Positions 33,576 to 62,002 of a stretch of DNA of 64,000 nt are shown in pieces (within the stretch, counting starts at the first letter, position 1; every line of letters begins with the position of its first letter). The notes beneath the pieces were generated by a model that made no database searches, had not been told where the DNA came from, and saw nothing but the letters and a program-made list of their open reading frames with translations. The stretch is from Mangrovivirga cuniculi. GTDB lineage: Bacteria; Bacteroidota; Bacteroidia; Cytophagales; Cyclobacteriaceae. The stretch covers positions 2,482,001 to 2,546,000 of the forward strand of contig NZ_CP028923.1 in NCBI RefSeq assembly GCF_005166025.1, read 5' to 3'. Both the position numbers and the translations under genes were made by a program.

Positions 33576-34911
33576 ATTAGCTGAAAAAATCGGTGAAGGA
33601 TTAATATTGATCACGGGAAATGATGAAGCCCCGATGAATTATAAAGATAATTATTATCCTTTCAGACAAGACAGTACCTTCCTTTACCTATGTGGTATAT
33701 CTCAACCTGGTCTTGCTTTAATTATTGATGCAAGTACTGGTAATACGATCCTTTTCGGTGAAGAAATGACCACGGATGACATGGTATGGACCGGGCCACA
33801 ACCTTCTCTAAGAGAACTTGCTGATAAAGCCTTGATTGATGATGTAAGGCCCTATAGTACGATCAGGGAATTCTTACACAACCAGCAAAAAGAAGTTTGT
33901 TTTCTTCCTCCATATCGTGGAGATAATGTTCTTAAAATTGCCAATTGGATCGGTATCAGGTCAGCGGAAGTATTAAATGGAGCATCAGAAAGACTGGTTG
34001 AAGCAGTTGTGTCTCTTCGTGAGATCAAGGATGAGGATGAGATCAATGAAATGGAAGATGCAGTTAATATTTCTGCTGAAATGCATATTGAAGCAATGAA
34101 AGTTGCTAAAGAAGGTATGACTGAGGCAGAGGTTATGGCTCATATTAAAAAAATTGCCCTGGCAAAAGGAAAAGGGACTGCCTACCCTCCTATTGTTACA
34201 AGGAACGGCGAAATTCTGCATAATCATCATTACGATTCTGTTCTCAAAAAAGGTGATCTGCTACTGATTGACTCAGGTGCTCAAAATAAAAATTTTTATG
34301 CAGGAGATATAACAAGGACTTTTCCAATAGCGGATGAATTCACTGATAAACAAAAAGAAATATATTCGATTGTCCTAAAAGCGGAAAAAGAATGTATTAG
34401 TGCAGCAAAAGAAGGTGTATCAAATCTATCATTGCATTTAAAGAGTGCTAGAATTATTGTTGAAGGGCTTTCATCACTTGGTATTATGAAAGGAGATCCG
34501 GATGAAGCCGTAGCTTCGGGTGCACATGCATTGTTTATGCCTCATGGACTTGGACATCAGATTGGAATAGATGTACATGACATGGAAGATCTGGGGGAAG
34601 ATCTGGTTGGATATGATAAAGAAATAAAACGAAGTAAACAATTTGGTTTAAAATCATTGCGATTAGGGAAAAAACTAATAGCTGGAATGGTCATTACTGT
34701 TGAGCCTGGAATTTATTTTATCCCTGGTTTAATAGAGATCTGGAAAAACGATCAAATGTTTACAGAGTTTATTAATTATGATAAACTAGAAGAGTATTTA
34801 GACTTTGGTGGAATCAGGATTGAAGATAATGTTCTGATCGAAAAAAATGGTCAGAGAATCCTTGGTAAGCCCATACCTAAAGAAATAAAAGACATTGAAA
34901 AACTTCGATAG
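33550..34911 (+). CDS. pepP: Xaa-Pro aminopeptidase, M24 family
   Basis: A 453-residue pita-bread metallopeptidase that removes N-terminal residues before proline. An N-terminal AMP_N domain (1-130, RQDSTFLYLCGISQPGLAL) precedes the catalytic domain. The five metal ligands are present: Asp in LLIDSGAQ, Asp in GDITRTFP, His in MPHGLGHQIGIDVHD, Glu in VEPGIYF and Glu in GIRIEDNVLI. The start overlaps the propeller gene by 26 bases, so the three genes from 30.5 kb form one operon. The cytosolic location follows from the absence of a signal peptide. Confidence 0.94.
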   Translation: MQYRERRNKLAEKIGEGLILITGNDEAPMNYKDNYYPFRQDSTFLYLCGISQPGLALIIDASTGNTILFGEEMTTDDMVWTGPQPSLRELADKALIDDVRPYSTIREFLHNQQKEVCFLPPYRGDNVLKIANWIGIRSAEVLNGASERLVEAVVSLREIKDEDEINEMEDAVNISAEMHIEAMKVAKEGMTEAEVMAHIKKIALAKGKGTAYPPIVTRNGEILHNHHYDSVLKKGDLLLIDSGAQNKNFYAGDITRTFPIADEFTDKQKEIYSIVLKAEKECISAAKEGVSNLSLHLKSARIIVEGLSSLGIMKGDPDEAVASGAHALFMPHGLGHQIGIDVHDMEDLGEDLVGYDKEIKRSKQFGLKSLRLGKKLIAGMVITVEPGIYFIPGLIEIWKNDQMFTEFINYDKLEEYLDFGGIRIEDNVLIEKNGQRILGKPIPKEIKDIEKLR

Positions 34912-34973
34912 ATAATTTGACGTTTATAGATTGAATATTCATTCAACTGAATGATTTAACTGTTATGCCCTTG

Positions 34974-35020
34974 TATGTGATTAAAATCACTTTAAACAAG
35001 GGCTTTTTGTTTGACCTTTG
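34974..35020 (+). promoter_or_regulatory. Crp-type activator site and -7 box of the YeeE/YedE operon
   Basis: The dyad GTGATT-AA-AATCAC (34977-34990) is a near-consensus CRP-class site. Its centre (34983.5) lies 36.5 bases upstream of the last G of GACCTTTG (35013-35020), a -7 box with one mismatch. There is no TTTG at the -33 position (34990-34993). The same geometry is found at the crp and rhodanese promoters. The start of transcription would fall near 35024, 25 bases before the ATG. Confidence 0.65.
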
Positions 35021-35048: not shown

Positions 35049-35627
35049 ATGAACGAGTTAATTGATTTTATCAGGCAACCATGGCCATGGTATGTGGCAG
35101 GTCCATTGATTGGGCTGACAGTTCCTGCCTTATTGATTTTGGGAAATAAATCTTTTGGAATATCCTCATCATTGAGGCATACATGTGCAGCTTGCTTTCC
35201 AGCAGATATTCCATTTTTCAAATATAATTGGAAAAAGGAAATGTGGAATATGTTTTTTGTATTGGGAATTCTAATTGGAGGTTTTATAGCAGCCATGTTT
35301 TTATCGAATCCCGAACAAATACGAATTGCTGAAAGCACACAAGCTGATCTTGCTGCATTGGGAATTACTGATTACAGTAGTTTATTACCTTCTCAAATAT
35401 TTACCTGGGATAATCTTTTCACAGGAAAAGGACTTGTCTTCTTCGTAATAGGAGGCTTTATGGTCGGATTTGGCACAAGGTATGCCGGAGGATGTACTTC
35501 TGGTCATGCAATCATGGGAATCAGTAATTTACAATGGCCTTCTTTACTGGCTACTATATTCTTTATGATTGGGGGAATAGTCTCGACACATTTCTTACTA
35601 CCAGCAATATTTGATTTATTCTTTTAA
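35049..35627 (+). CDS. YeeE/YedE-family sulfur transporter, first subunit
   Basis: A 192-residue membrane protein with about five hydrophobic segments. I start at ATG 35049 (MNELIDFIRQ); the longer frame from 34965 would run through the Crp site. The conserved sulfur-transport signature FGTRYAGGCTSGHAIMGIS is near residues 140-158, and an RHTCAACF pair lies at Cys46/Cys49. In TsuA, the studied homologue, conserved Cys pass thiosulfate across the membrane. Here the full-length transporter is split in two: the next gene is the other half, ten bases downstream. Co-regulation with persulfide oxidation genes supports a sulfur role. Confidence 0.88.
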   Translation: MNELIDFIRQPWPWYVAGPLIGLTVPALLILGNKSFGISSSLRHTCAACFPADIPFFKYNWKKEMWNMFFVLGILIGGFIAAMFLSNPEQIRIAESTQADLAALGITDYSSLLPSQIFTWDNLFTGKGLVFFVIGGFMVGFGTRYAGGCTSGHAIMGISNLQWPSLLATIFFMIGGIVSTHFLLPAIFDLFF

Positions 35628-35636
35628 TAAGTAGAC

Positions 35637-36140
35637 ATGGAAAAGTTTTTAGATAAAGATATAGAAGTAAAAGTAGACAAACCCGAAGAGTGCGAAGCTC
35701 CAAATAATCAGGAAACCTCAGATCGGTTTATCGGATTAATTAAGTACCTGATTGTAGGTGTTTTATTCGGGATAGTCTTTGTGAAAGCAGAAATTATCTC
35801 CTGGTTTAGAATTCAGGAAATGTTCAGGTTTCAATCCTTCTTCATGTATGGAGTAATTGGGTCAGCAATAATAGTAGGTATTATTTCAATCCAGCTTATT
35901 AAAAGGCTGGATATAAAAACACTTAAAGGCGAAAAGATAAAAATTGCTGATAAGGAATTCAGAAAAGGTCAAATATTCGGTGGGTTTATATTTGGTCTTG
36001 GCTGGGCAATTACCGGAGCCTGCCCTGGACCCTTGTTCGCTCAGATTGGTTCTGGATTTACAGTGGTAATTGTCACCTTGTTAAGTGCGATTCTTGGAAC
36101 CTGGGTATATGGTAAATTTTCAGACAAGCTGCCAAAATAG
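35637..36140 (+). CDS. YeeE/YedE-family sulfur transporter, second subunit (DUF6691-like)
   Basis: A 167-residue membrane protein with about four hydrophobic segments after an acidic cytoplasmic N-terminus (about 1-38). The signature FGGFIFGLGWAITGACPGPL (about residues 115-134) holds the conserved Cys of the sulfur transport domain. It pairs with the upstream half to make the transporter. The end is followed by a terminator at 36168-36200, so the two genes form a closed operon. Confidence 0.88.
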   Translation: MEKFLDKDIEVKVDKPEECEAPNNQETSDRFIGLIKYLIVGVLFGIVFVKAEIISWFRIQEMFRFQSFFMYGVIGSAIIVGIISIQLIKRLDIKTLKGEKIKIADKEFRKGQIFGGFIFGLGWAITGACPGPLFAQIGSGFTVVIVTLLSAILGTWVYGKFSDKLPK

Positions 36141-55171: not shown

Positions 55172-55897
55172 ATGGAGATCAGGGTAATTGAAAATAGATT
55201 AAGAAATAAGATCAGGCATGATTCTTTTACTGCCTGGCACGATTATTTACCATCTTTTAAGAATCAGGGTTCTTTAGCAATGGTCTATAAGGAACTCTTA
55301 TGGCCCGGGGCAAAATATCAAACTAAACACAGCCACGAATTTACGATTGTTCAATGTAGTTTTTCCGGAAATAAATCCTTGCGAAATTCTTATTGGGAAG
55401 CCAATGTCAATTCGGTCAATTCAGTTATTCATAAGTTATACCCTGATAAGCCTATTGATAGTATGAATCTCGAAGATACCACGCCATATTTTGGTTATCA
55501 GTTTTGGTTTAACTCTATGAGTACCGATAAGGATACAGCCAATGTCTCTTTTGAAGCTGAAAATTTGAATCCGGGAGAATTAAAAAGAATATATGAGGCG
55601 AAAGACGAAAAGAATGAAAATTTTGTGTCTCTTAAATATGGCAGGTTGGATAAGGGAGAAAATTTTGAATACAAATCCAGGAATATTAAGAGTAAAATTT
55701 ACATTCACGTGGTTTCGGGAGGATTCGAATTTTCCTCGAATGATGGCATTATAATGTTGAATAATGAAGATTCCGTCGAAATTTCAGATATAATTGATAT
55801 AAACCTGAAGTTCATTAAAGATTCACAGATTTTATTATCGAAAATTACCACGTTTAAGATATCAATCTCAGATAACAATAATCAAATATTTTTGTGA
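55172..55897 (+). CDS. Uncharacterised protein with a cupin/pirin-like C-terminus
   Basis: A 241-residue soluble protein. The first half has Trp, His and Tyr in a mixed pattern (DSFTAWHDYLPSFKNQGSLA, AKYQTKHSHEFTIVQCSF). The second half reads VVSGGFEFSSNDGIIMLNN followed by EDSVEISDIIDINLKF, resembling the small beta-barrel of pirin-like cupins, but the metal-binding His/Glu set is not evident. Its stop codon lies inside the Crp box of the next gene. It has its own promoter. Function unknown. Confidence 0.65.
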   Translation: MEIRVIENRLRNKIRHDSFTAWHDYLPSFKNQGSLAMVYKELLWPGAKYQTKHSHEFTIVQCSFSGNKSLRNSYWEANVNSVNSVIHKLYPDKPIDSMNLEDTTPYFGYQFWFNSMSTDKDTANVSFEAENLNPGELKRIYEAKDEKNENFVSLKYGRLDKGENFEYKSRNIKSKIYIHVVSGGFEFSSNDGIIMLNNEDSVEISDIIDINLKFIKDSQILLSKITTFKISISDNNNQIFL

Positions 55898-55937
55898 TAA
55901 AAATCACAAAGCAGCACTCACCTAAAAAGTAATTTTG
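55891..55937 (+). promoter_or_regulatory. Palindromic Crp-type site and -7 box upstream of the crp-like gene
   Basis: TTTGTGATAAAAATCACAAA (55891-55910) is a perfect 20-base dyad with the CRP half site TGTGA. Its centre (55900.5) is 36.5 bases before the last G of TAATTTTG (55930-55937), a full match to TAnnTTTG. No TTTG is at the -33 position (55907-55910 reads CAAA). The ATG at 55941 is four bases beyond the -7 box, so the transcript may be leaderless. Confidence 0.75.
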
Positions 55938-55940
55938 GGT

Positions 55941-56597
55941 ATGGTAGAAGATAGATTAATAAGACAATATTTACCTCAGTTTAATGATAATGATCTAATT
56001 GAGGAACTTTCAAACAATGCGAATTATGTTGAGCTGAAAGCCGGAGATATTTTGATCGAACCGGGCCAGTATATTAAAATGATCCCTATAATCCTTGACG
56101 GAGCTATTAAAGTAATGCGAACCGACGACCAGGGACATGAATTGTTTCTTTATTATCTGGAACCAAAGGAAACCTGTGCAGTGAGTTTGACATGTTGCAG
56201 AGCACAGCGCAGTAGTGAGATTAAGGCAGTGGCTGAAACAGATGTGAAAATGCTCACTGTCTCTTCCAGTTTACATGAGGAATTAGGAGATAAATACCGT
56301 CAATGGAAAGAGTACATCGCAGGGACATATCAGTCTCGGTTTGAAGAAGTATTAAAAGTTATTGATGATATTGCTTTTAAGCGAATGGACGAGAGATTAT
56401 TAAATTATCTCCTGGTAAAAAGAAAGCAACTCCATTCTAATGAAATAGCCACCACTCACCAGGCAATAGCCAATGAACTCGGCACTTCCCGCGAAGTTGT
56501 TTCCAGGTTGCTTAAAACCCTGGAAAAGAAAAAATGGATAGAACTGACGAGGAATAAAATATTTATAAGAGACAATATTGAAGACTTAATAGTTTAA
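55941..56597 (+). CDS. Crp/Fnr-family transcription regulator, probable sulfur or redox sensor
   Basis: A 218-residue protein starting at ATG 55941 (the earlier start is TTG). A cyclic-nucleotide-binding-like sensor domain (about 15-120) has a Cys cluster ETCAVSLTCCRAQ with Cys79, Cys85 and Cys86, absent from E. coli CRP. A long dimer helix follows, then the winged helix-turn-helix (about 165-200, HQAIANELGTSREVVSRLLK). The recognition helix SREVVSR keeps Arg, Glu and Arg at the places of CRP Arg180, Glu181 and Arg185, which read GTGA. It probably activates its own gene, the YeeE/YedE pair and rhodanese-cstB. Confidence 0.9.
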   Translation: MVEDRLIRQYLPQFNDNDLIEELSNNANYVELKAGDILIEPGQYIKMIPIILDGAIKVMRTDDQGHELFLYYLEPKETCAVSLTCCRAQRSSEIKAVAETDVKMLTVSSSLHEELGDKYRQWKEYIAGTYQSRFEEVLKVIDDIAFKRMDERLLNYLLVKRKQLHSNEIATTHQAIANELGTSREVVSRLLKTLEKKKWIELTRNKIFIRDNIEDLIV

Positions 56598-56624
56598 AGG
56601 AGCCCCGAAAGGGGTTTTTTTTAT
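56597..56624 (+). terminator. Terminator of the crp-like gene
   Basis: CCCC (56603-56606) pairs with GGGG (56611-56614) in a GAAA tetraloop; the stem extends by an A-T and a G-T pair, and eight T follow. It separates the regulator from the rhodanese gene, which then needs its own promoter. Confidence 0.8.
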
Positions 56625-56635
56625 TATATGCTAAA

Positions 56636-56679
56636 GTGACAATTAGCACAGAAATAAGGAGTTAGCAGATTTACTTTTG
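56636..56679 (+). promoter_or_regulatory. Crp-type site and -7 box of the rhodanese-cstB operon
   Basis: The degenerate dyad GTGACA-AT-TAGCAC (56636-56649) has its centre at 56642.5, again 36.5 bases before the last G of TACTTTTG (56672-56679), a full TAnnTTTG match. The -33 position (56649-56652) has no TTTG. The start of transcription would fall about 17 bases before the ATG at 56700. Confidence 0.6.
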
Positions 56680-56699: not shown

Positions 56700-57020
56700 A
56701 TGTTTAATCTGTTTAACACTAATACAAAATACAAAGATATTCCGGCACCTAAGTTTAGGGAGCTCATGGATAAAGAAAATACAGTTTTGATTGATGTCAG
56801 AACTAAAAGAGAGTTTGATAATGGAGCTATTCCAAATGCAATCAATTATGACTTGTTAAGTGGTGAGTTTTCCGAGAAAATCGCTGACCTCGACAAAGAC
56901 AAAACATACTTAATCTATTGCAGAAGTGGAGCAAGAAGTGCTAACGCCTGCGATATGCTGGCTAAGCATGGCTTTGAAAAGCTTTATAATTTACAAGGTG
57001 GAATAATGTCATATAATTAA
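56700..57020 (+). CDS. Single-domain rhodanese (sulfurtransferase)
   Basis: A 106-residue protein with one rhodanese domain: VLIDVRTKREFDNGAIPNA (about 29-47) and the active loop YCRSGARS with the nucleophile Cys74. It carries sulfane sulfur as a Cys persulfide. It resembles the GlpE-type cytosolic rhodaneses. The next gene, 17 bases later, encodes a persulfide dioxygenase-rhodanese fusion, so the two probably pass sulfur between them. Its promoter carries a Crp-type site. Confidence 0.93.
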   Translation: MFNLFNTNTKYKDIPAPKFRELMDKENTVLIDVRTKREFDNGAIPNAINYDLLSGEFSEKIADLDKDKTYLIYCRSGARSANACDMLAKHGFEKLYNLQGGIMSYN

Positions 57021-57037
57021 GAATAAAAATTAAAATC

Positions 57038-58459
57038 ATGGAAAATAACAATCAATTAATCGAACAAATTTACACGGGGTGTCTGGCTCAGGGAGCATAT
57101 TATATCGAATCAAATGGTGAAGCTGCAGTGATCGATCCACTTAGAGACGTGGATAGCTATATCGCTAAAGCTGAATCAAGAGGGGCAAAAATTAAGTATA
57201 TTTTTGAAACACACTTCCATGCTGATTTCGTTTCCGGGCACATTGACCTGGCTAAGAAAACAGGTGCGCCTATAGTATTTGGGCCTAACGCAAAACCTAC
57301 ATTTGATGCTGTAATTGCTGAAGACGGACAGGTATTTAAGGTTGGAGATCTGGAAATCAAAGTTCTTCATACTCCTGGTCATACAATGGAATCATCATGT
57401 TTCTTATTGATTGATGATAATAAGCCTCAATCTGTATTTACAGGAGATACATTATTCATCGGTGATGTGGGCCGTCCTGATCTTGCGCAAAAAGCAGGTG
57501 AATTAACAATGGAGGATCTGGCAGGGTACCTGTACGACAGTCTAAGGAATAAGATTATGACACTTCCTGAAGACGTTATTGTTTATCCTGGTCACGGTGC
57601 CGGATCAGCATGTGGTAAAAACATGAGTAAGGAAACCGTAAGTACAATTGGCGAGCAATTAGAGTCTAATTATGCTCTAAGAAAAGATATGACAAAAGAA
57701 GAATTCATCAAAGAGGTGACAGAAGGATTGAAAACGCCTCCTGCCTACTTCCCAATGAATGTGAAGATGAATAAGGAAGGATATGATAATATTGATGAGG
57801 TAGTCAATCATGGTATGAAGGAATTAAATGCTGAAGAATTTGAAGCTGTAGCAAATGCGAGTGGAGCAATAATACTTGATACCCGTGATCCTCAGGAATT
57901 TGCGAAAGGCTTTATTCCAAATAGTATTAATATTGGTTTAGACGGACAGTTTGCTCCATGGGTAGGTGCACTTATTCCGATTGATCAGGAGCTATTGATC
58001 GTTGCTGAAGAAGGTCGCGAAGAAGAAACTGTAACCAGATTGGCACGAGTGGGTTATGACAAAGCACTCGGACATTTAAAAGGTGGTTTTAATACCTGGT
58101 TAAATTCAGGGAATGAAATCGATAAGGTAGAATCAATCACTGCATCAGATTTTGCAGATAGAATTAAAAACGACAAAGATGAGATTGTTGTTGATGTTAG
58201 AAGATCATCTGAATATCAGTCTGAGCATGTAATTGATGCATTGAACATCGAACTCGACTACATTAATGATCATATGGCTGAATTTCCAAAAGACAAGCAT
58301 TTCTTTGTACACTGTAAAGGAGGTTATCGATCAATGATTGCAAGTTCGATTTTAAAGTCAAGAGGATACGATAATTTCACTGACGTAGATGGAGGTTTTG
58401 ATGAAATAGCTAAACAAGACGTAGATAAGACTGATTATGTATGCCCAAGTACACTATAA
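57038..58459 (+). CDS. cstB: CstB-like persulfide dioxygenase fused to pseudo-rhodanese and rhodanese domains
   Basis: A 473-residue protein with three domains. Residues 1-250 are a metallo-beta-lactamase-fold persulfide dioxygenase: ETHFHADFVSGH (His59, His61, Asp63), HTPGHTMESS (His115), FTGDTLFIGDVGRPDL (Asp137) and YPGHGAGSACG (His186). Residues about 265-360 are a rhodanese fold whose loop reads VAEEGREEE and has no Cys, i.e. a pseudo-rhodanese. Residues 370-470 are an active rhodanese with Cys426 (FVHCKGGYRS). This is the S. aureus CstB plan. It oxidises low-molecular-weight persulfides, giving thiosulfate or sulfite. Closed by its own terminator. Confidence 0.92.
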   Translation: MENNNQLIEQIYTGCLAQGAYYIESNGEAAVIDPLRDVDSYIAKAESRGAKIKYIFETHFHADFVSGHIDLAKKTGAPIVFGPNAKPTFDAVIAEDGQVFKVGDLEIKVLHTPGHTMESSCFLLIDDNKPQSVFTGDTLFIGDVGRPDLAQKAGELTMEDLAGYLYDSLRNKIMTLPEDVIVYPGHGAGSACGKNMSKETVSTIGEQLESNYALRKDMTKEEFIKEVTEGLKTPPAYFPMNVKMNKEGYDNIDEVVNHGMKELNAEEFEAVANASGAIILDTRDPQEFAKGFIPNSINIGLDGQFAPWVGALIPIDQELLIVAEEGREEETVTRLARVGYDKALGHLKGGFNTWLNSGNEIDKVESITASDFADRIKNDKDEIVVDVRRSSEYQSEHVIDALNIELDYINDHMAEFPKDKHFFVHCKGGYRSMIASSILKSRGYDNFTDVDGGFDEIAKQDVDKTDYVCPSTL

Positions 58460-58755: not shown

Positions 58756-59070
58756 ATGGGGGTAAGTAAATTAGATAGTTACACAAAATCGGAGTTAAAA
58801 ATTGCCGATTTATCCAAAGCACTGGGCCATCCGGCCAGAATAGCAATCTTAAAGCATTTGCTAAAGGTTAAACAGTGTATAAATGGTGAATTAGTTAGTG
58901 AACTTAAGTTGGCTCAGGCTACTGTTTCCCAGCATTTAAGTGAATTAAAGAAAGCCGGGATAATCAATGCAAAAGTCAAGGGAACATCTATGATCTACTC
59001 CATTGATAAAAAGTCCTGGATAGGGATGGAAAATATTTTTAACGATTTCTTTTCAGAATATACCGGGTAA
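58756..59070 (+). CDS. ArsR-family transcription regulator, second copy
   Basis: A 104-residue winged-helix repressor, clearly paralogous to the arsR at 12.3 kb: ALGHPARIAILKHLLKVKQC against FAHPARIAIIEHMLKVNAC, and LAQATVSQHLSELKKAGII. Only one Cys remains (KQCINGEL); the C-terminal CC and the second internal Cys are missing, so an arsenite site is unlikely and the signal may be another metal, redox or a thiol. It lies between the persulfide operon and the Fur-family regulator. The box at 58601-58615 suggests self-control. Confidence 0.88.
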   Translation: MGVSKLDSYTKSELKIADLSKALGHPARIAILKHLLKVKQCINGELVSELKLAQATVSQHLSELKKAGIINAKVKGTSMIYSIDKKSWIGMENIFNDFFSEYTG

Positions 59071-59100
59071 CATTTTTTCTTAAATGCAATCTTGCAATTG

Positions 59101-59143
59101 TTGTAACAATGTTGCAATAAAGTGCCTTTCTATATTATCTTTG
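59101..59143 (+). promoter_or_regulatory. Fur-family box and promoter of the fur-like gene
   Basis: TTGTAAC-AAT-GTTGCAA (59101-59117) is a 7-3-7 dyad with one mismatch. A full -7 box TATCTTTG (59136-59143) lies 18 bases further, and the TTG at 59112-59114 can serve as -33 (spacer 21). A protein on the box would block the -33 region, as for a repressor. The same box is found at 62021-62037. Confidence 0.6.
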
Positions 59144-59167
59144 GGTTAGAAATAATTGATTCTACTT

Positions 59168-59584
59168 ATGAACAGAGATGATATCAAATCTTTATTGCAT
59201 AAAAATGATCTTCGGGCTACTCCTGTCAGATATGAAGTTTTAGAGGTTTTTTCTAAAAAGGAAGAAGCACTATCAAACAGGGATCTCGAAGACAGACTGC
59301 CGGATTTTGACAGGGTAACGCTATATCGGACTTTGCAATCATTTATCGATAAGAGCATTATACATAAAATACCGGGAGATTCCGGTAACGCGCTTTATGC
59401 ATTTAGTTTTGATGAAAAAACGGTCTATAAAGAAGATAGTCATATTCATTTTCAATGTATCAATTGTGGTAAACTTGAATGTCTTCCGGGTTTTGAAATT
59501 CCCATTCCTGAACTTCCTTCAGGTTATTCAATGAGCGAAATTAATATGATTGTCAAAGGTAAGTGCGAAAAGTGCAATGCTTAA
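59168..59584 (+). CDS. Fur-family metalloregulator (Fur/Zur/PerR type)
   Basis: A 138-residue protein starting at ATG 59168 (MNRDDIKSLL; the earlier start is TTG). The winged helix has the family pattern NDLRATPVRYEVLEVFSKKE and DFDRVTLYRTLQSFIDKSII. The metal region has HIHFQCINCGKLECLPG and a terminal CEKCNA, giving two CxxC pairs for a structural zinc. Which metal it senses cannot be decided; the TonB receptor and lipoprotein downstream argue for metal uptake, and zinc is the most common for this arrangement. The gene overlaps the receptor start by eight bases, so they are coupled. Confidence 0.9.
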   Translation: MNRDDIKSLLHKNDLRATPVRYEVLEVFSKKEEALSNRDLEDRLPDFDRVTLYRTLQSFIDKSIIHKIPGDSGNALYAFSFDEKTVYKEDSHIHFQCINCGKLECLPGFEIPIPELPSGYSMSEINMIVKGKCEKCNA

Positions 59585-62002
59585 AAAATTGAGATCCTTA
59601 GTTTTTCTTATCTTAATATTTTCTTGTTTCACTCCTATTTCAGGACAGGACCAAAAATGTGATTTTTTGTAGAGGGAACGGTCTATGATCTGAATTCGGG
59701 AGAACCCCTACCCTATGCTACAGTAACAATTAAAGAAACTCAAAAAGGTACTGTAGCCAATGAAAAAGGAGAGTTTTTAATTAATAACCTATGTGAAGAA
59801 GAATTCGATCTGATTATTTCTCATGTCGGTTATAAAACGTTAATTCACCACCATGATGCTTATCACGAAACACCGGACATCTATTTAGCTGTTGAGTCAG
59901 AATATCTTGAAGGAGTTACTGTTGAAGGACAAAAAACTGTAGGAGCTTATCAAACACAAACCGTAGAATTTGTAGAGAAATCGGTAATTGATCAAACAGT
60001 CGGAACTACGCTGGGTAAATTATCAAGTTCGCTTCCGGGAGTTTCGATGATTTCAACAGGAAGCAATATCACCAAACCGATGATCCATGGATTACACGGA
60101 AATAGAATCCTGATATTAAATGATGGAGTGAGACATGCATTTCAAAATTGGGGTAAAGACCATGCTCCTGAAATAGATCTTAGTGCTGTGGATAATATAA
60201 CCGTTGTTAAAGGAGCTTCCTCGGTAAGATATGGTTCCCAGGCGATGGGCGGAGTAATCTTAATCGAGAGCGATCAGCCAGAGCTTCATGAAAAATTAAA
60301 AGGAGAAGTTACCCTGAAAGGAGAAACCAATGGCAAAGGTTATGGTGGTGAATTTGAATTATCTTCCGGAGGACACCGGTTTGCAGCAAATATATCAGGT
60401 AATTATTATCGAAGAGGAGATTTAAAAGCGCCTGATTATAACCTTACCAATTCTGGAATGGAAGAAATTGGAGGGAAAGCGATGGTCAGGTATCATAAAG
60501 AAAGATTCAATGCCAATGGTATTATATCATATGTTAATCAAACATCAGGTATTTTAAGAGGATCTGTGGTAGGAAATCTCGAAGATCTGCAAAATGCAAT
60601 GACCATCGAACCTCCGGAAGGAACAACTGATTTTAGTTATAATATCAATACTCCCCGACAGGAAGGAAATCATTTTTTGACCAAAATACAGGCATCGCAA
60701 AATTTTTCTGATAACCTGATTACCGGATTTTATTCATACCAGTTAAATAAAAGAAAAGAGTTTGATATTCGTAGAGGAACTAATAATAACATTCCTTCTA
60801 TTGATCTGGAATTAAATACTCACCAGCTGGAAGTGAATTTACTTCATGAAAAGTTTATTGGGCTCGAAGGGAATGTCGGAATGCAATGGATCTATCAGGA
60901 TAATAATAATATAGAAGGTACGAATACAACCCCTTTTGTACCTAATTATCAGAATACTTCCTTTGGAGTTTATCTAACGGAATCTAAATCTTTTGAGAAT
61001 AATTCAATGTTTGAATTTGGACTCAGATACGATTATTCATTTCTTTCAGTTTTAGGTAGGGATGTAAATCAGAATATTTTCTCCGGAGAAATTGAGCTGA
61101 ATAATTTTTCGTTAAATGTCGGATATCAAAAAGATATCAAAGACTTTAGTGTTAAATTCAATGCCGGAACTGCCTGGAGACCTCCAAACGTGGCAGAGCT
61201 TTATTCTTTTGGAAAGCATCAAACTTCAGTTATTACCTATGGATTATTGAGATACACGCTTGATGAAAATTTCTTTCCTGTTACAGATAGGGTGCTTGAT
61301 CCATCAGATAAAAATATCGGAGCTGAAAAGGCTTATACATTCAATACCTCTCTAAAATACGCAATAAAAAACTGGAAAATCGATCTGAATTTATTTGCTA
61401 ATTACATTACAGATTATATTTATGAAAAACCGGCAGGCATAACCGAAACAGTGCGGGGAGCTTTTCCTATTTATATTTATTCCCGAACAGATGCTATTAT
61501 TCCGGGCATTAACGGTAGAGCTAATGTCGATTTTGGTAATACCGGGAATGCTACCATACGAATGGATTATACTTATGGACGAAACTTAGATGATGGTAGT
61601 TCTTTTATTGATATTCCGCCTTTTAAATTGAACTTTTCTTATAATAGAGAGATAGAAGATGTTTGGATCTTCAATAAAATTACACCTTCTGTGGGCCTAG
61701 AACATGTTTTCAGGCAAAACAATGCACCCCGAACGATTACTCCCCAAGAGTTTATAGATGCTGAAAATAATAACTCAGACATATTTAATGGTGATTTTAC
61801 CATCTTTGATTTTAAAGATTCTCCAAAAGCTTACACGCTATTGAATTTTGACGTTTTAGCAACCATAAAATCGCAATTCTTTTTCCGTTTTTCCGTTGAA
61901 AACATATTGAATGCCGGTTACAGGATCTATACAGATCGAATCAGGTATTATGCTGACCAGCCGGGGATAAATTTCAAGGCATCAGTTAATTACAAATTTT
62001 AA
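59577..62002 (+). CDS. TonB-dependent receptor, reading frame broken near the N-terminus
   Basis: A signal peptide starts at ATG 59577 (MLKKLRSLVFLILIFSC to GQDQKCDF) but stops at TAG 59670-59672. The missing frame goes on at once as VEGTVYDLNSGEPLPYATVT, a carboxypeptidase-regulatory-like domain, then a plug (GKLSSSLPGVSMISTG, SSVRYGSQAMGGVIL) and barrel, ending in VNYKF. The longest intact frame begins only at ATG 60047. The break is a one-base shift in a T6 run (59663-59668). Corrected length would be 808 residues. A His-rich stretch (HHHDAYHETPD) lies in the first domain. It may be a metal receptor controlled by the Fur-family protein. Confidence 0.85.

Follow-up and report, generated by a model that had tools for sequence, protein, structure and literature searches.

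Which regulator commands the genes for hydrogen sulfide (H2S) and persulfide handling in Bacteroidota? The question is raised by a stretch of 64,000 nucleotides of Mangrovivirga cuniculi DNA (the window), in which the gene of a Crp-family regulator and two sulfur operons, yeeE and rhodanese-cstB, are each preceded by a Crp-type dyad and a Bacteroidota -7 box. We consider it likely that this regulator is a persulfide-responsive Crp-type class II activator of an H2S/persulfide-oxidation regulon; the regulon is well supported by sequence, and that its signal is a persulfide is what we infer. The elements concerned are the following (matrix scores are explained below).

34977 to 34990, no strand: dyad of the yeeE promoter, GTGATTAAAATCAC, centre 34983.5, matrix score 16.8, second in the window
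35013 to 35020, plus strand: -7 box of the yeeE promoter, GACCTTTG, the same in a second genome of the genus
35049 to 35627, plus strand: yeeE-type sulfur transport subunit 1 (PF04143)
35637 to 36140, plus strand: YeeE/YedE-type sulfur transport subunit 2 (PF04143 and DUF6691)
55894 to 55907, no strand: dyad of the regulator promoter, GTGATAAAAATCAC, centre 55900.5 (predicted -41.5), top matrix score, 23.9
55930 to 55937, plus strand: -7 box of the regulator promoter, TAATTTTG, ending 36.5 bases from the dyad centre
55941 to 56597, plus strand: Crp-family regulator, 218 amino acids, with HTH_Crp domain, cyclic-nucleotide (cNMP)-like beta-roll and recognition helix SREVVSR
56636 to 56649, no strand: dyad of the rhodanese-cstB promoter, GTGACAATTAGCAC, degenerate (one mismatch), centre 56642.5, matrix score 11.5
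56672 to 56679, plus strand: -7 box of the rhodanese-cstB promoter, TACTTTTG, ending 36.5 bases from the dyad centre
56700 to 57020, plus strand: single-domain rhodanese, 106 amino acids (PF00581)
57038 to 58459, plus strand: CstB-like persulfide dioxygenase-rhodanese, 473 amino acids (PF00753 and PF00581), with a metallo-beta-lactamase domain plus two rhodanese stretches

Geometry of the three promoters

An earlier note on this DNA had placed three Crp dyads at an identical distance from the -7 box and had seen in this the class II activation of one sulfur regulon extending over 21 kb. The coordinates were confirmed on the raw sequence, where all three promoters have 36.5 bases between the dyad centre and the final base of the box. 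The boxes are those of Bacteroidota sigmaA promoters, TAnnTTTG: the regulator and rhodanese-cstB boxes are exact, and the yeeE box GACCTTTG is one base off, deviating at its first base, a point that the note had passed over. In the excerpt consulted of a flavobacterial start-site map (PMC9723704), TAnnTTTG covers -12 to -5, and the spacing of 36.5 bases is therefore predicted to bring the dyad centre to -41.5, the position of a class II activator site overlapping the upstream promoter element; the published position of the box thus supports the geometry that had been proposed. The start codon of the regulator opens with the fourth base after the box (55941) and, with the box at -12 to -5 in the same excerpt, the regulator mRNA would be leaderless or nearly so. 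The stop codon of the pirin-like gene upstream shares bases with the first half of the regulator dyad.

It is true, as the earlier note had it, that the three promoters lack a TTTG at -33, but this has been dropped as evidence for activator dependence, because a TTG at -36 to -29 occurs in 4 of 48 distinct exact-spacing promoters versus 24 of 210 other TAnnTTTG promoters and does not discriminate between them. In these 48 promoters strong information resides only in the dyad and the -7 box, i.e. in the elements by which they were selected, and the base before the dyad is T in 90% of them.

In many relatives the regulator gene starts about 15 to 20 bases after the box, unlike in this genus.

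Chance and conservation of the spacing

Could the agreement of the three sites be due to chance, the palindromes and boxes having been picked by eye? A dyad and a box at 36.5 bases, with no more than one mismatch overall, occur three times in the 64 kb, exactly at the three promoters named, and not once in 2.56 Mb simulated by a first-order Markov model with the composition of the window. A matrix of 20 bases, trained on 18 orthologous regulator promoters all taken from other genera, ranks the same sites first, second and third in the window (23.9, 16.8 and 11.5), the next score being 9.4. Chance alone would give 0.85 sites with a score of at least 11 in 64 kb, and in 20 simulated windows no site reaches 16. 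The rhodanese dyad taken alone (11.5) is therefore at background level, which speaks for chance and agrees with the earlier description of this site as degenerate and resting mainly on its spacing; we accept it because of the spacing and of its conservation within the genus. In the second genome of the genus the rhodanese-cstB dyad and its spacing are both kept, and the regulator dyad is unchanged in sequence.

The spacing has a clear peak in more distant relatives as well. The loci of the best 80 of 571 confirmed Bacteroidota relatives of the regulator (the named loci, 1.416 Mb) hold 13 exact dyads at 36.5 bases from a box, six other distances being represented once each; with one mismatch in the dyad, 35 lie at 36.5 and 12 at 37.5, seven further distances occur once each, and the reversed control yields a single match. 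When dyad and TAnnTTTG were searched at 25 allowed spacings in 36 genomes of the family, M. cuniculi included, 48 matches were obtained against 7 for the reversed pattern, with 22 at 36.5, 9 at 35.5, 7 at 37.5, 1 at 34.5 and 9 elsewhere. In the cstB and yeeE regions of 20 out of 36 genomes with the regulator, 39 sites are found at 36.5, 9 at 37.5, 1 at 35.5 and between 0 and 2 at each of 13 other tested distances. Both the dyad and its distance, on whose conservation in orthologous promoters the earlier note had staked its claim, are thus conserved. Simulation, matrix ranks, spacing peaks and conservation together rule out a coincidence, to which we leave a practically negligible probability.

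The yeeE dyad and its hairpin

Two predicted hairpins accompany these promoters.

34967 to 35008, plus strand: hairpin enclosing the yeeE dyad, arms GCCCTTGT and ACAAGGGC, followed by T5 (RNA fold)
56602 to 56622, plus strand: terminator-like hairpin CCCC-GAAA-GGGG followed by T8, downstream of the regulator gene (read from the sequence)

The second hairpin separates the regulator gene from rhodanese-cstB, which therefore probably has its own promoter. The first one raises the question of whether the yeeE dyad is anything more than the upper stem of a terminator, its match to the other two sites being coincidental. The dyad does lie inside a hairpin with 8-base arms (34967-34974 and 34996-35003) followed by five T, with a folding energy of -17.2 kcal/mol and a z of -3.56, and this hairpin may serve as terminator for the M24 peptidase gene upstream, which ends at 34911. 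The arms are conserved in the second genome of the genus; this sister species keeps the palindrome and breaks the T run, for which reason a terminator-only role was rejected. Moreover, other yeeE genes (L256, L113) have a dyad 36.5 bases from a TAnnTTTG box, and a simple terminator scan, which considers loops of 3-8 only, makes no call at the yeeE hairpin. A terminator alone is thus a very unlikely account of the yeeE site, and the roles of terminator and regulatory dyad can coexist.

Genes behind the sites

The M. cuniculi genome (4.66 Mb, a single contig) was screened with GTGAYN4RTCAC-N22-TAnnTTTG, up to two mismatches being allowed, which gave 16 sites versus 6 for the reversed control. 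Seven of them have at most one mismatch; one lies upstream of the regulator and six upstream of sulfur or thiol operons, a class that was defined only after inspection of the genes. The seven precede the regulator, yeeE, rhodanese-cstB, a TauE/SafE exporter, a SoxA/TsdA-type cytochrome c, a thioredoxin and a YgaP-like membrane protein. In the second genome of the genus, five of the seven are found again with no more than one mismatch (regulator, rhodanese, yeeE, cytochrome and TauE) and the YgaP site is present with two; the thioredoxin site is absent among the matches listed for that genome. A looser pattern recovers the regulator site and two others with dyad scores below 9, the reversed control giving 0. 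The exact dyad GTGATN4ATCAC occurs 11 times in the genome versus 4 for the reversed control; two of these are sites of the window, and 6 of the other nine lie inside open frames.

The promoter of the SQR gene of M. cuniculi (L173, 3818584) has a perfect dyad, but carries TTAATTGT at the -7 position. This resembles the SM5-type box TAnnTTGY found in the excerpt of PMC9723704 and perhaps points to another sigma factor.

The association with sulfur genes extends to the relatives. Among 82 sites with a spacing of 35.5-37.5 in the 80 named loci, 57 stand before sulfur genes and 14 before the regulator, 71 in all. The first downstream gene encodes TauE in 22 cases, CstB in 16, the regulator in 14, a rhodanese in 8, SQR in 5, YeeE in 2, a DUF2892 protein in 2, a cytochrome in 1 and a porin in 1, and is unlabelled in 11; labelled sites outside Cytophagales come from Flavobacterium, Maribacter, Aquimarina, Lacibacter and Salibacter. 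At least one of cstB, TauE, yeeE and SQR is held by 46 of the 80 regulator loci. In one family genome (L115) the genes for SQR, the regulator, TauE, thioredoxin, CstB, a porin and YeeE lie together in one cluster, which carries three sites, and the joining of window operons 21 kb apart into one sulfur regulon is supported by such linkage of cstB and yeeE in relatives. The three sites are part of a wider group of switches that many Bacteroidota have kept, and one regulator protein seems to act through these on the genes for detoxifying H2S and its reactive products.

In several relatives the regulator has as neighbours a SulP permease gene and, behind it, a beta-carbonic-anhydrase gene (L102:5606-7466, L112:4934-6798). 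The pair has a dyad with a near box at 36.5, and a bicarbonate or sulfate branch of the regulon is possible.

The regulator and its presence

The regulator belongs to the Crp/Fnr superfamily, PF00027 and PF13545 being above their cut-offs, and its AlphaFold model, built with 58 of the 81 regulator sequences (its own and those of the 80 named relatives), has a mean predicted local distance difference test (pLDDT) score of 94.1 and matches Crp/Fnr structures. Relatives encoding it at 51-60% identity include Algoriphagus, Cyclobacterium, Echinicola, Cecembia and Lunatimonas. It is not a cAMP-CRP equivalog, its score with the NCBIfam CRP model being 53.4 bits for a cut-off of 266, and its Crp-type fold sets it apart from BigR/SqrR, CstR and FisR, which are of the ArsR, CsoR and sigma54-AAA types.

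Does this protein bind the dyads, or does another Crp/Fnr-family protein of the cell bind them, the neighbouring regulator having a different role? M. cuniculi has four HTH_Crp_2 proteins, i.e. three further candidates, and elsewhere in the phylum the identical strict motif and spacing stand before non-sulfur genes. Only the regulator at 55941-56597, however, has a Crp-type R-E-x-x-x-R recognition helix; the corresponding helices of the other three are SRQTVTT, STESVIR and RVETVIR. The sites also track the presence of the regulator. They are found in the cstB/yeeE regions of all 20 regulator-bearing genomes taken for this comparison (49 sites in 251.6 kb), versus one of eight yeeE regions (1 site in 78.8 kb) from genomes without a regulator homologue better than E 4e-7; 12 such genomes were considered, 8 with a yeeE match being used and 4 having none. 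Within 1.5-kb flanks in regulator-bearing genomes, 29 of 30 cstB loci have a site. In 18 of the 30 loci of the family, the genus included, the regulator gene itself has upstream of it a dyad and, 36.5-37.5 bases from this, a box matching in at least 5/6, and the frequent company of cstB, TauE, yeeE or SQR in the named loci counts on the same side. We therefore regard the binding of the dyads by another family member as improbable, and the regulator would be the protein that binds them and, by binding, activates.

In one relative (L110), two dyads precede the regulator gene (8399 and 8468), 69 bases apart.

The cysteines and the signal

The only cysteines of the regulator, Cys79, Cys85 and Cys86, are located at the place of the phosphate-binding cassette of cAMP-CRP. 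In the model a helix spans residues 80-88, with Cys79 directly before it and Cys85 and Cys86 within. Over the 81 regulators, Cys79 is conserved in all, Cys85 in 78 and Cys86 in 69. Glu72 of E. coli CRP aligns with the invariant Ala80, and the columns of Arg82 and Ser83 (90 and 91) are variable; these three CRP residues contact cAMP. An FNR-type 4Fe-4S protein has four cluster cysteines, of which three are N-terminal; with three cysteines in the window protein (79/85/86) and two in some relatives, the regulator does not fit this type. The combination of a conserved cysteine pair with an H2S/persulfide regulon would be that of a persulfide-sensing regulator.

A possible, though clearly less probable, alternative is that regulator and regulon are real and the signal is not persulfide: through its cysteines the protein would respond to another oxidant, to nitrosative stress, or to a metal or Fe-S cluster, or else it would respond to a small molecule bound in the pocket of the beta-roll. 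Members of the Crp/Fnr superfamily answer to widely differing signals, the support for the sensor step comes from sequence, and some strict sites of the phylum lie upstream of peroxiredoxin-like and OsmC-like genes (named by eye). On the other hand, the gene content concerns mainly the handling of sulfide and persulfide, and relatives with Cys79 and Cys85 only (L294 and L302) rule out a four-cysteine cluster per subunit.

The proposed model

In the model that we favour, the triggering event would be the reaction of a persulfide or polysulfide with Cys79 and Cys85 at the site of the lost cAMP cassette, which would act as a switch. The regulator dimer would bind TGTGAY-N4-RTCAC centred at -41.5 and would contact the housekeeping polymerase where the -33 contact would be, as in class II activation. 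It would thereby drive the expression of the persulfide dioxygenase-rhodanese, rhodaneses, the TauE exporter, the YeeE transporters, the SoxA/TsdA-type cytochrome c, the thioredoxin and the YgaP-like membrane protein, and that of its own gene, closing a loop on itself. SQR would probably also be a target, its dyad being present and its box unclear in M. cuniculi. We lean, by a little more than even chances, towards the broader view that, inside the Crp superfamily, these proteins make up a new family of activators sensing persulfide, in which a C-x5-C(C) thiol switch would have taken the place of the phosphate cassette. By class II activation at -41.5 of the promoter type proper to the phylum, they would command the regulon for H2S oxidation in much of Bacteroidota.

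Several observations weigh against this model. In M. cuniculi, 4 of the 9 two-mismatch sites were inspected and none has an evident sulfur gene: those at 95190 and 2673011 lie within genes, and those at 2397662 and 68820 precede genes without an evident sulfur role. The SQR gene and another cstB copy of this genome have dyads without a clear box, and a further cstB copy (G000:C1:3896282) has no site (best score 7.5). The named loci were selected for the presence of the regulator and include many near relatives; the loci without regulator are few and partly on short contigs. Only 18 of 30 yeeE loci have a site within the 1.5-kb flanks, many yeeE genes lying deeper in an operon. Of the 30 family regulator loci, 12 have no good site before the regulator gene (2 have a dyad without box, 10 no clear dyad), and autoregulation is therefore not universal. 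As regards the thiol switch, Cys86 is dispensable (present in 69/81), and 3 of the 81 sequences lack Cys85. Finally, a strict scan of 296 genomes of the phylum, unselected for the regulator, yielded 34 sites, distributed over 26 genomes (reversed control, 1), and only 10 of the 30 sites that had loci and were examined are labelled as sulfur-type or regulator. These ten precede genes for Trx, TauE, CstB, DUF2892, rhodanese, SulP or the regulator, two of them lying more than 250 bases off; the remaining ones precede reductases, peroxiredoxin-like, OsmC-like and unrelated genes (named by eye). The 36.5 rule has consequently been given up as an exclusive mark of sulfur genes, and the dyad-box geometry is probably generic, common to several TGTGA-binding Crp-family activators of the phylum.

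Three of the strict sites (L317, L321, L324), from three genera of two other families, lie upstream of a ferredoxin-NADP or thioredoxin-reductase-like gene (named by eye) that begins 17 bases after the box each time; another Crp-type regulon is possible.

Relation to known systems

The class II promoters of E. coli CRP have a TGTGA-N6-TCACA dyad centred at -41.5, recognised by an R-E-x-x-x-R helix. The system described here shares with them the Crp fold, the TGTGA-type dyad, the helix and the -41.5 centre; it differs in its Bacteroidota -7 box in place of a -10, in the loss of the cAMP cassette, where cysteines are found instead, and in its sulfur regulon. The closest solved sequence is a Crp/Fnr protein of Eubacterium rectale (PDB 3dv8, E 2.1e-26), which also comes first by Foldseek E-value; among the matches listed by VIA-align, 4ev0 is first (Z 17.7, root-mean-square deviation 3.4, 207 aligned). 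A C-x5-C of 3dv8 aligns at Cys79/Cys85, but 3dv8 has Ile for the second Cys of the CC pair and its record names no function.

The regulator families for H2S and persulfide named in the portions of the literature consulted are ArsR (BigR/SqrR), CsoR (CstR), sigma54 (FisR), MarR and Fur-type PerR. According to the excerpt of PMC8148161, BigR, SqrR and CstR repress and FisR works with sigma54; in Acinetobacter, according to that of PMC7315123, FisR controls SQR, PDO and TauE, BigR controls yeeE-yedE-pdo2, and a persulfidated, uncharacterised Crp-like protein is reported. As far as these excerpts go, the regulator has in common with FisR, BigR/SqrR and CstR a comparable SQR/PDO/TauE/yeeE-yedE gene set and conserved cysteines; unlike them, it has another fold and is predicted to activate the housekeeping polymerase. 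On the best reading it would have in Bacteroidota the role that FisR, BigR and CstR have elsewhere. The Bacteroides Crp BT4338 (excerpt of PMC3878776) is likewise a Bacteroidota Crp-family protein with predicted autoregulation, but has a predicted sugar-use regulon and a TATGTT-type palindrome. In the available part of PMC9774590, Crp is named in the reference list only. No description of a Crp-type sulfide/persulfide regulon in Bacteroidota was recognised in the open-licence PubMed Central literature, judged by titles and abstract openings. If the model is true, a Crp-type activator fills the gap of an H2S/persulfide regulator for Bacteroidota. It would also provide an inducible promoter set whose geometry is fixed at -41.5, and would allow class II activation to be tested directly on promoters without the -10/-35 layout of Proteobacteria.

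Neighbouring genes

An ArsR protein encoded at 58756 was considered as regulator and rejected: it scores 36.6 bits with the BigR model for a cut-off of 155 and has a single cysteine, and its gene is preceded by none of the eight best matrix matches of the window. The region 58756-59584, downstream of cstB, holds this ArsR-type gene and a Fur-like gene (named by eye). It is followed at 59580-62002 by a TonB-dependent-receptor-like gene (named by eye) whose signal-peptide part and remainder are in different frames; the interruption near 59.66 kb is a true break, slippage or a sequencing fault.
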